From an uncultured Bacteroidia bacterium (GTDB taxonomy: Bacteria > Bacteroidota > Bacteroidia > Bacteroidales > UBA932), in the NCBI GenBank assembly GCA_902801885.1, contig CADCJX010000005.1, forward strand, positions 1 to 64,000: DNA of 64,000 nt, read 5' to 3'. The position numbers were made by a program, and so were the translations under genes. The notes under the pieces are model-generated. The model worked only from the letters and a program-made list of their open reading frames with translations, had not been told where the DNA came from and searched no databases. Within the stretch, counting starts at the first letter, position 1; every line of letters begins with the position of its first letter. Positions 5,754 to 52,291 of the stretch are shown piece by piece.

Positions 5754-5797
5754 CGGAGTCCGGAACGAACCTGAACGGAGTCCGGAACGAACCTGAA
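5754..5797. repeat. Exact 22-bp tandem duplication
   Basis: CGGAGTCCGGAACGAACC followed by TGAA occurs twice head-to-tail without a mismatch (5754-5775 and 5776-5797). Each unit contains the palindrome TCCGGA. The second unit ends just before the recombinase stop codon. Confidence 0.85.
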
Positions 5798-18618: not shown

Positions 18619-18676
18619 ATCGCACCCCAAAACAAAAGGCCTCCCATTGGGAAGGCCTTTTGTTTTGGGGTGCGAT
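18619..18676 (-). terminator. 24-bp inverted repeat: tRNA-His terminator extended into the tRNA 3' end
   Basis: Bases 18619-18642 are the exact reverse complement of 18653-18676, with a 10-base centre that pairs further. Read on the minus strand, the inner AAAAGGCCTTCCC hairpin ends in TTTTGTTTT and is a good terminator for tRNA-His. The outer part of the left arm is a copy of the last tRNA bases (ATCGCAC-C-CCA in complement), so the stem can also pair with the tRNA acceptor 3' strand. Confidence 0.8.
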
Positions 18677-49919: not shown

Positions 49920-51032
49920 ATGACAGCGGACGGTAAAATAAAGGTTGGGATCGTCGGAGCTGCCGGCTACACTGCCGGGGAGCTACTGAGGATCCTCGTG
50001 AACCACCCTTGCGTGGAGATCCTCTTCGCGCAGAGCGGCAGCCATGCCGGCGAACCTGTCTGGTCAGCCCACGCCGACCTCCTCGGTGAAACGGATTTAC
50101 GGTTTATTCCTTCGGTTCTTCCTGGTGAGGGCAAATCGGCCAATGAGGACAATGCCACCCTCGGCACTAGAGGGGGGACCGGAGCGGAACTTAGTGGAGC
50201 GAGCGGTGGGGCCTCGCGGAGCGAGGCGTCCGAATGGCCGATATTGCCCTCACTGGATGAAATAGACGTGTTATTTCTTTGCTCAGGTCATGGAAAGGCG
50301 AAGCCGTTCGTGGCGTCGCTGCCGGAAAGCTACAAGGGCGCAATCATCGACCTGGGCAACGACTACCGTCTTGCAGCCGATGCCGAAGACTTCGTCTACG
50401 GCCTTCCCGAGGCCTTCCGTGACAAGATCAAAGGCGCCCGGCATATTGCCAACCCAGGCTGCTTTGCCACTTCGATCCAGCTGGCCCTCCTGCCGATGGC
50501 TAAGGCGGACCTCCTCCCCGAAATCCACGTTACAGGCATCACCGGATCGACCGGGGCCGGCCAGGCTCCTTCCGAGACAACACATTTCAGTTGGAGGACC
50601 GACAACCTGTCAGTCTACAAGGCATTCACCCACCAGCATCTGGGCGAAATCAACGAGACTCTCCACGCCCTGGCTCCAAACTATGCCGGGCAGATGAATT
50701 TCGTCCCGGTCCGGGGCGACTTCGCCAGGGGAATCCTTGCCTCGGTGTACTTCGACTGCGACCTTGGCGAAGAGGAGGCGGTGGCTCTTTACAAGGACTA
50801 CTACAAGGACGAGCCGTTCGTACACGTGATCGACTCCAATCCTGACGTCAAGATGGTCGTCAACACCAACAAATGCGTGTTGAACGTCCGTAAACATGGC
50901 GGGAAACTCCACGTTATCAGCGTGATAGACAATCTGGTAAAGGGGGCTTCCGGCCAGGCTGTCCAGAACATGAACCTTATTTTCGGCCTGCCTGAAGACG
51001 CTGGCCTGCACCTGAAAGCAACAAGATTCTGA
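49920..51032 (+). CDS. argC: N-acyl-gamma-glutamyl-phosphate reductase with inserted repeat peptide
   Basis: A 370-aa NADPH enzyme of arginine synthesis. The Rossmann start VGIVGAAGYTAGELLRIL, the catalytic Cys in ANPGCFATSIQLALLPM, and the C-terminal KGASGQAVQNMNLIFGLPE are normal. Residues 75-107 (EDNATLGTRGGTGAE and onward to SEASEWP) are foreign to the family and lie between two strands of the Rossmann domain, just before EIDVLFLCSGHGKAKPF, where a surface loop is expected. Nearly the same peptide is in ArgD. The acyl group may be succinyl rather than acetyl, as known for Bacteroides. Confidence 0.93.
   Translation: MTADGKIKVGIVGAAGYTAGELLRILVNHPCVEILFAQSGSHAGEPVWSAHADLLGETDLRFIPSVLPGEGKSANEDNATLGTRGGTGAELSGASGGASRSEASEWPILPSLDEIDVLFLCSGHGKAKPFVASLPESYKGAIIDLGNDYRLAADAEDFVYGLPEAFRDKIKGARHIANPGCFATSIQLALLPMAKADLLPEIHVTGITGSTGAGQAPSETTHFSWRTDNLSVYKAFTHQHLGEINETLHALAPNYAGQMNFVPVRGDFARGILASVYFDCDLGEEEAVALYKDYYKDEPFVHVIDSNPDVKMVVNTNKCVLNVRKHGGKLHVISVIDNLVKGASGQAVQNMNLIFGLPEDAGLHLKATRF
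50142..50240 (+). repeat. In-frame coding repeat, copy 1 (in argC)
   Basis: These 99 bases (33 codons) are about 90% identical to 51965-52063 in argD, with the first 47 bases after the boundary (50144-50190) identical. They encode N/S-EDNATLGTRGGTGAE, then S-G/E-ASGGA and RSEASE. A 7-bp palindrome GCCTCGC-gga-GCGAGGC lies at 50211-50227, and CCCTC/GAGGG can form another hairpin in both copies. Confidence 0.92.
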
Positions 51033-52291
51033 TGAAACTTTTCGACGTATACAACCTGTTTGACGTGACCCCGGTGAAGGGTCTCGGCACCCGTGTCTGG
51101 GACGACAAGGGCACTGAATATCTCGACCTCTATGGTGGCCACGCCGTAATCTCCGTCGGCCATTGCCATCCGAAGTACGTATCGGCCGTAACCGACCAGC
51201 TTGGCAAACTGGTATTCTATTCCAACAGCGTCCGCAACCCACTCCAAGAGGAACTTGCGGAGAAAATAGGGGAACTGTCCGGCTACCAGGACTATTCCAT
51301 CTTCCTATGCAATTCCGGGGCTGAGGCCAATGAGAATGCCTTGAAGCTGGCTTCTTTCCACACCGGGGAGAGACGTGTGCTTGCTTTCAAGGGTGCTTTC
51401 CATGGCCGTACATCAGGGGCTGTCGCCGTCACCGACAATCCCAGGATCAGGGCTCCGTTCAACAGCTGGCATGAGGTTACCTTCGTTGGGATGAACGACA
51501 TCGAGTCCGTAAGGGATGAACTTTCCAAAGGGGACATCGCTGCCGTGATCATCGAGGGTATCCAGGGTGTCGGGGGAATAATCATCCCTGATGACAACTT
51601 CATGCGTGAGCTCAGGGTGGCCACCGAAGACGCAGGAGTCCCGCTGATCCTTGACGAAGTCCAGAGCGGATATGGCCGTACGGGCAAGTTCTTCGCCCAT
51701 CAGTGGGCCGGGATCAAACCGGACCTCATCACGATGGCGAAGGGCATGGCCGGAGGATTCCCGATCGGTGGTGTACTGATTTCGCCAGAGTTCGAACCTG
51801 TCAAAGGCATGCTGGGCACGACTTTCGGCGGCAACCATCTCGCAATGGCCGCTGCAATAGCCGTTGCCGACATCATCAAGGACGAAGACCTCGTCTCCAA
51901 CGCCCTCACTGTCGGTACTTACCTCAAGACCCGCCTCCAGGCATTGTCAGATGGCGCCCCGGCAAGTGAGGACAATGCCACCCTCGGCACTAGAGGGGGG
52001 ACCGGAGCGGAACGAAGTGAAGCGAGCGGTGGGGCCGAGCGCAGCGAGGCGTCCGAACTGCCGGGGGCACCATCTGACCATCAACCGATGATCAAGGAGG
52101 TCCGGGGAAGGGGACTGATGACAGGAGTGGAGTTCGACGGGCCGGTGGCGGAGATAAGGAAAAAGCTCCTGTTCGACAAGCATATATTCACAGGTGTATC
52201 AGGCAAGAACATGATCCGCCTTCTCGCCCCTCTCGTTCTCACCAAGGACGACGTCGACATATTCATTAAAGCATTGGAGGAAGTGTTATGA
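51032..52291 (+). CDS. argD: N-acylornithine aminotransferase with inserted repeat peptide
   Basis: A 419-aa PLP enzyme (fold type I). Conserved blocks include YLDLYGGHAVISVGHCHP, FLCNSGAEANENALKLA, the PLP-aspartate region LILDEVQSGYGRTG and the Schiff-base lysine in ITMAKGMAGGFPIGG. Residues 312-344 repeat the foreign segment of ArgC and sit between the helix GTYLKTRLQAL and the strand IKEVRGRGLMTGVEF, again an expected surface loop. The ATG overlaps the argC stop (TGATG). It should convert N-acylglutamate semialdehyde to N-acylornithine. Confidence 0.94.
   Translation: MKLFDVYNLFDVTPVKGLGTRVWDDKGTEYLDLYGGHAVISVGHCHPKYVSAVTDQLGKLVFYSNSVRNPLQEELAEKIGELSGYQDYSIFLCNSGAEANENALKLASFHTGERRVLAFKGAFHGRTSGAVAVTDNPRIRAPFNSWHEVTFVGMNDIESVRDELSKGDIAAVIIEGIQGVGGIIIPDDNFMRELRVATEDAGVPLILDEVQSGYGRTGKFFAHQWAGIKPDLITMAKGMAGGFPIGGVLISPEFEPVKGMLGTTFGGNHLAMAAAIAVADIIKDEDLVSNALTVGTYLKTRLQALSDGAPASEDNATLGTRGGTGAERSEASGGAERSEASELPGAPSDHQPMIKEVRGRGLMTGVEFDGPVAEIRKKLLFDKHIFTGVSGKNMIRLLAPLVLTKDDVDIFIKALEEVL
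51965..52063 (+). repeat. In-frame coding repeat, copy 2 (in argD)
   Basis: This is the second copy of the 99-base repeat, in the same reading frame relative to the host gene as copy 1. About nine substitutions separate the copies, clustered at 52014-52020, 52037-52042 and 52058-52059. It contains GAACGAAGTGAAG, a 13-mer also found in the interspersed repeat at 56457-56469. At least one other forward frame and one reverse frame are also free of stops. Confidence 0.92.

Follow-up and report, generated by a model that had tools for sequence, protein, structure and literature searches.

A palindromic hairpin element in frame in argC, argD and other genes of a Bacteroidales genus, with site-specific arms and a core present in both orientations

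Two element copies in neighbouring arginine genes

The genes argC and argD of an uncultured Bacteroidia bacterium (GTDB lineage Bacteroidota; Bacteroidia; Bacteroidales; UBA932) lie next to each other within positions 1 to 64,000 of contig CADCJX010000005.1 (GenBank assembly GCA_902801885.1), the whole of which is called the window here, and each of them carries one copy of a palindromic element (Table 1). The element is composed of a conserved core of ~85 nt, made up of an H-type pseudoknot and two variable hairpins (H2 and H3), which is closed by a stem of ~20 bp (P1). The Pfam domains Semialdhyde_dh and Aminotran_3 were detected in ArgC and ArgD, respectively. The two copies include a direct repeat of 104 nt, the longest in the window, at 50137-50240 and 51960-52063, which is 90% identical and has a start-to-start distance of 1823 nt. 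An 18-mer of the element occurs twice in the window free of mismatches, against 0.06 occurrences expected with up to three mismatches. As an earlier reading of the sequence alone (the sequence-only reading) had stated, both segments are read in the same frame, as EDNATLGTRGGTGAE..SEASE, at residues 75-107 of ArgC and 312-344 of ArgD, and the host open reading frames (ORFs) are intact. The unit of ~33 codons that it described is a real repeat, the length of which was understated: each copy additionally contains arms that pair with each other and that differ between the copies. The site-specific arms, the pseudoknot core and the inversions described below did not figure in that reading and are new here.

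Table 1. Host genes and parts of the two element copies in the window.
Feature	Positions	Strand	Basis or remark
argC, N-acetyl-gamma-glutamyl-phosphate reductase, 370 aa	49920..51032	+	ORF list and Pfam; carries copy A
Copy A, left arm, site-specific stem	50116..50150	+	GAGGAC at its end
Copy A, H-type pseudoknot	50153..50174	+	Helices counted on the alignment; positions from the sequence
Copy A, pseudoknot helix 1	50153-50156 / 50163-50166		TGCC / GGCA
Copy A, pseudoknot helix 2	50158-50162 / 50170-50174		CCCTC / GAGGG
Copy A, hairpin H2, variable	50178..50207	+	ACCG..CGGT
Copy A, hairpin H3, GNA tip	50211..50227	+	GCCTCGC GGA GCGAGGC
Copy A, right arm, site-specific stem	50228..50261	+	
argD, acetylornithine aminotransferase, 419 aa	51032..52291	+	ORF list and Pfam; carries copy B
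Copy B, left arm, site-specific stem	51943..51973	+	
Copy B, pseudoknot region	51976..51997	+	Copy A positions + 1823
Copy B, hairpin H2	52001..52030	+	Copy A positions + 1823
Copy B, hairpin H3	52034..52050	+	GCCGAGC GCA GCGAGGC
Copy B, right arm, site-specific stem	52051..52081	+	

The segment had been regarded as foreign to both protein families, and comparison with relatives agrees. The ArgC open frame is shorter in sister species (327 aa in genome G033, 322 aa in both G013 and G001, against 370 aa in the window), and the stretch in ArgD is without a counterpart in 1vef, the closest solved structure, residues 306-350 of ArgD mapping between residues 324 and 326 of that protein. The argD copy was also found in G033 and G017, and G096 has a copy in argC (locus L357). 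It is plausible that the peptide occupies a surface loop in both enzymes; the single-sequence AlphaFold2 model of ArgC was poor (mean predicted local distance difference test score, pLDDT, of 40) and too weak to use. The additional open frames that had been noticed in the ArgD copy are matched by several open frames of the element core. Because both copies share their frame, recombination between them would be expected to fuse argC to argD in frame. Single-strand folding gave a z of -4.0 for the argC copy and 0.0 for the argD copy. A gapless hairpin scan of the window found three hairpins (the argD copy, 7050 and 18619), compared with none or one in each of eight Markov shuffles, and the argC copy was missed because its arms contain gaps.

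A dispersed family and its core

The proposal that the segment belongs to a dispersed, in-frame, protein-coding palindromic family was upheld by further copies in the genome, by element-free orthologues and by many unrelated host genes; the segment is neither restricted to ArgC and ArgD by ordinary homology nor carried by all of their orthologues. With the argD unit as query, 31 matches at E<=10 were obtained in the source genome (2.46 Mb, 31 contigs), of which 21 have E<1e-5. A core profile detected 23 cores in source-genome loci and 62 distinct matches over all loci collected, from which three with E>1e-3 were dropped; the remaining 59 copies, with L037 left out, formed a 58-row alignment. 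Cores were found in genes including argC, argD, recQ, rsmF, miaA, ispH, ftsK and dnaX. Based on Pfam, the host families comprise RecQ, RsmF, periplasmic binding protein, MiaA, IspH, phospholipase-D-like protein, FtsK, MATE, family-3 glycosidase, 2-oxoacid dehydrogenase acyltransferase, DnaX, DsbD and formyltransferase; in the DsbD and formyltransferase genes of the source genome, the matches covered only pieces of the element. The host of L025 was named manA from reading its sequence, as Pfam gave no match at 1e-8. One periplasmic-binding-protein gene of the source genome (L004, contig C15, ~29.35-29.62 kb) contains two oppositely oriented copies ~0.1 kb apart.

Fifty of the 59 copies lie inside ORFs of at least 150 aa. 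A second set of 110 loci provided 57 distinct copies after duplicates and copies close to locus ends were removed, and 50 of these lie inside ORFs of at least 250 aa, as do 246 of 280 random 90-nt windows from the 8-kb loci of the same set; the element is therefore not depleted in genes. The 50 ORF-borne copies of the second set are oriented forward in 33 cases and reverse in 17. The best forward frame is open in 104 of 118 cores and the best reverse frame in 110, and the arm-to-arm interval has a median of 142 nt among 121 coding copies.

The element was detected by DNA search in 8 of 61 genomes, the source genome counted. In the genus, which is probably Cryptobacteroides, a covariance model (E<=1e-5, strict filters) detected the element in 280 of 400 genomes and in 103 of the 151 good ones, and in a sample of the order (E<=1e-6) it did so in 4 of 295 genomes including the source genome, that is 3 of 294 others, one of which belongs to the same family and two to other families. 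A genome scan returned at least 117 stretches; the 80 listed are labelled Bacteroidales or Bacteroidia, in one case Candidatus Coprenecus, and many come from rumen or other ruminant samples. No Rickettsia or Wolbachia host occurs among these 80 of at least 117 stretches, no search restricted to Rickettsia having been made. Carriage by phages or plasmids was rejected, as neither an exact-pattern search of viral contigs nor blastn against plasmid and phage collections gave a match, and a known RNA family was rejected for lack of any match to Rfam covariance models at E<=1 (8 loci, 24,302 bases).

The pseudoknot of the core is formed by a TGCC/GGCA helix crossing a CCCTC/GAGGG helix. In the 58-row alignment 88.3% of the cells pair, a value that falls to 35-47% when the columns are slid by 1-3 positions, and 171 cells show double changes, compared with 74.3 (standard deviation 7.4) in shuffles and reached in none of 500; the structure was read by eye from these sequences and then counted, so the counts are not independent of them, and related rows inflate them. 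RNAalifold recovered only the CCCTC/GAGGG helix from the alignment. Among 161 copies, 128 fit the H3 pattern and 119 of these have a GNA tip, in which N is represented by all four bases; the H2 tip is GNA in 42 of 62 pattern-fitting copies. GNA tips and tandem G-A mismatches stabilise DNA mini-hairpins, and the tips hint at a single-stranded DNA form of the element. A separate mini-hairpin, TCATTCT-GAGCGNAGCGA-AGAATCT, was observed in L063, L064, L190, L219, L321 and L337; its stem varies in step and its tip equals H3 of the element.

Site-specific arms and the orientation of the core

The two arms of a copy match each other and differ from those at other sites. Over the 59 copies, the pairing score of a copy's own left and right arms averaged 17.5, compared with 6.5 for swapped arms (standard deviation 1.6; largest 19), and the own partner scored best in 51 copies; in the second set the values were 18.2 and 6.6 (standard deviation 1.9; largest 27), the own partner scored best in 45 of 57 copies and 54 of 57 reached a score of at least 12, both sets including orthologous copies. 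The inner part of the stem is common within subfamilies and varies in step, and the outer part is mostly not shared.

The origin of the arms was sought in the host DNA. No match below E 0.5 was found away from their own sites for 21 left arms of the source genome, and copying of arms from elsewhere in the genome was rejected for want of such a donor. Source-genome arms were also compared with element-free orthologous sites (ispH 9, manA 2, MATE 2, bglX 1, miaA 6, argD 4, argC 3; 27 in total, three more ispH sites being impossible to extract). At 26 of these 27 sites neither arm was above chance. The exception was the miaA gene of G114, where a core-less hairpin resembles the left arm of the source genome (score 19; reached by 0 of 300 controls). 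Of all 54 comparisons of arm and element-free site, two in G114 and one elsewhere gave scores that at most 14 of 300 controls reached.

A stem can also be shared by copies at unrelated sites. One stem is common to three copies in unrelated genes, that in argD of G301 and those in MATE of G236 and G170, and their matches rank first and third among 12,649 pairs at unrelated sites. In G576, a genome of another family, the three copies read (L302, L306 and L309) have one long stem in common, in contrast to the site-specific stems of the genus; the two copies read in G606 differ in stem, and two in G524 are partly alike. As the stem appears to travel with the core in these cases, the unit that moves was taken to be the whole hairpin, with the site-specific arms resulting from later drift in step. 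Paired changes of this kind were observed between orthologues: comparison of L016 with L096 shows two matching base differences and one paired one-base indel in both arms, and the arms of L201 and L229 differ by a paired change from A-T to G-C. Monttinen and Loytynoja (PMC8794818) describe template switching as creating and repairing stems.

The orientation of the core was compared between species, one genome representing each species, in pairs of different loci whose flanks were at most 97% identical and aligned over 130 nt or more on either side. The core has the same orientation in 79 of 157 such orthologous-site pairs and is inverted in 78, and, among the 12 sites represented by at least three copies, 11 show both orientations. 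Arm likeness exceeds the 99th percentile of unrelated pairs in 12 of the 78 inverted cases, several of which lie in miaA; because recognisable arms are retained, these pairs were regarded as true inversions. The clearest is L201/L229, apparently intergenic, in which flank identity is 80.6%, the arms of ~22 nt carry the one paired change and the core and inner ends are reversed. The stems of another inverted pair, L389/L122, are unrelated. Individual cases could be due to assembly error in metagenome assemblies.

The presence of the element at a site varies between sister species, in comparisons that did not include the recQ and dsbD sites of the source genome and several others. At the argD site of G321 and G236 a scar-like 7-bp hairpin without a core was found and compared with the element of G423; it suggests that elements are lost with short in-frame hairpin scars left behind, among which the core-less miaA hairpin of G114 was also listed. 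Where a copy is retained, its core differs little: the cores of argD in G000 and G033 differ at 2 of 86 positions (flanks 77/365 and 58/360), those of MATE in G000 and G017 at 6 of 86 (flanks 89/365 and 74/360), and those of the same-orientation miaA pairs listed at 0-3 of 75-84, with flanks mostly 71-82% identical; the rsmF and fmt pairs, being inverted, were left out of the flank comparison. Among G000, G033 and G017, core divergence has a median of 10.3% at the same site (15 pairs), compared with 9.4% between different sites of one genome (371 pairs).

Proposed explanation, alternatives and known systems

Based on these results, the window segments are probably copies of a selfish palindromic mobile hairpin that host proteins tolerate, with arms that are copied from one another and a core that inverts. 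The mobile unit would be the whole hairpin, the ~85-nt core inside a long stem, and a copy would persist in a gene where it is in frame, since the core has several open frames on both strands and its peptide would be tolerated in a loop; survival would thus depend on tolerance and not on a benefit to the host. After insertion the stem would drift with both arms changing together, most likely as replication switches template between the arms and copies one from the other. Such a switch, or arm-to-arm recombination, could also turn the core round and give either orientation at one site. Elements may also be lost, leaving the short in-frame scars.

Several observations weigh against this explanation. 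Two of the 59 copies (L017 and L037) have arms no better than chance and show no stem by the arm-swap test, and P1 pairs in just 70.7% of cells, the arms of some rows being out of register in the fixed alignment. When changes in same-orientation orthologous pairs were crudely counted, 358 were one-sided and broke a pair, more than the 155 paired double changes. The 157 pairs compared for orientation are non-independent, coming from at most 27 sites, and stem likeness is missing in 66 of the 78 inverted and 46 of the 79 same-orientation pairs. After a plain arm-to-arm inversion, the frame would remain open in only 76 of the 121 coding copies, compared with 594 of 1803 control intervals; in the window this would hold for the argD copy and not for the argC copy. 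No transposase or other mover was found: the source genome has two weak matches to Y1 transposases, which also occur in genomes without cores, such as G007, G010 and G024, and a Y1/RAYT (REP-associated tyrosine transposase) partner could not be separated from this background.

Since stem likeness is missing in most pairs, many of them could have arisen by separate insertion into a hot loop, and the 66 inverted pairs without it could be either old inversions with drifted arms or such insertions. Extended to the whole family, the core would repeatedly enter pre-existing hairpins or tolerant loops, and differences in orientation would mostly reflect separate events. Unrelated hairpin inserts in the same loops of sister species (argC of G033 and G017, dnaX and dsbD of G033), the 7-bp hairpin at the argD site of G321 and G236 and the matching core-less miaA hairpin of G114 agree with this, but the argD hairpin can also be read as what excision of the G423 element left behind, host sequence resembles neither arm beyond chance at 26 of the 27 element-free sites, and the same arms are retained in twelve inverted pairs, so that hot spots as the general explanation seem unlikely.

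Selective retention of each core for a function that its RNA or DNA structure serves in the host, such as regulation, chromosome organisation or an uptake signal, is likewise improbable. Such a function would fit the slower change of cores than of flanks in the argD and miaA pairs and the prevalence of GNA at the H3 tip, but sister species differ in which sites are occupied, the core occurs in either orientation, and no core was detected in 120 of the 400 genomes of the genus at the threshold and strict filters used. Core divergence at the same site is also no lower than between sites, a result that fits homogenisation as well; judged from the sequences, selection and homogenisation between copies cannot be told apart as the cause of the low core change.

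Formation of the arms at insertion by backward copying of the host flank (snap-back synthesis), suggested by the source-genome miaA, in which the 12 nt preceding the insert recur reversed behind it and of which the usual MiaA sequence would presumably need only one stretch, is very improbable as a general source, being unsupported at 26 of 27 element-free sites and having as its exception the G114 miaA site, which is a hairpin that lacks the core and has a similar arm.

A further step beyond the mobile hairpin is that copies flip in living populations by template switching within their own stem, with dozens of housekeeping enzymes existing in two sequence forms and no dedicated invertase. This is put forward only tentatively and is doubtful; if true, it would provide a genus-wide set of natural protein switches.

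No paper on this hairpin family was recognised in literature searches, whose coverage excluded most subscription journals. The sequence-only reading had likened the element to the palindromic repeats of Rickettsia known as RPEs, and the likeness holds for behaviour only. In passages of two sources, RPEs are described as palindromic repeats of 100-150 bp that lie in frame in unrelated protein genes and hit the same loci in orthologues, sometimes with different families involved (PMC3767692, PMC10969869). The present element is also a dispersed palindrome (median 142 nt), in frame in unrelated genes; unlike RPEs, its relatives are found in Bacteroidales, and a pseudoknot core, a site-private stem and both orientations did not appear in those passages. 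It was not classed as an RPE.

Other known systems resemble it in part. Intragenic invertons, for which Chanin et al. (2024) is said to be the primary paper, are likewise short segments between inverted repeats inside a coding gene and occur in both orientations; here, the orientation differs between species, and arms that vary between sites give no sign of a common recombinase site. Repetitive extragenic palindromic (REP) sequences, which are moved by RAYTs (Y1 transposases), are also palindromic, non-autonomous and present in many copies, but the present element is ~140 bp long, has another core and no linked transposase was seen. REP sequences are described as small (20-40 bp) and tagged with GTAG or CGTC (PMC3733652). 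Perfect inverted repeats within protein genes, with both arms encoding conserved protein, were reported from mitochondria of Nematomorpha (PMC6649704); these share the position inside protein genes, and the abstract of that report describes no shared core. Unlike a miniature inverted-repeat transposable element (MITE), all copies of which have the same terminal inverted repeats, the element has site-specific arms, though three G576 copies share a stem.

Protein-coding palindromes were reportedly unique to Rickettsia, to go by the title of a 2002 paper by Ogata. Wolbachia has been added as a host (PMC3767692). The family described here is common in a large Bacteroidales genus, lies in genes as often as random positions do, and has arms that stay complementary while changing. 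Comparison of sister genomes allows direct tests of the persistence of hairpins in coding DNA, the rate of template-switch correction and inversion, and the gain of protein loops.

Other hairpins and repeats were observed at the same sites and in the window. The argC loops of L107 (G033) and L108 (G017), dnaX of L139 and dsbD of L121 contain other short hairpin repeats with extra pairing bases, with the core TTCGACAAGCTCA and with ATGCCCGATCTGGTCGGGCAT; literature searches on the repeat with the core TTCGACAAGCTCA found no paper. In miaA of G017, G186 and G321 (L143, L373 and L376) a further insert of ~150 nt with its own hairpins adjoins the element or lies inside it. Elsewhere in the window, 22 nt are perfectly duplicated in tandem at 5754-5797, and the strongest simple hairpin, at 18619-18676, is an inverted repeat of 27 bases with a 4-nt loop and 96% complementarity, which may be a terminator.

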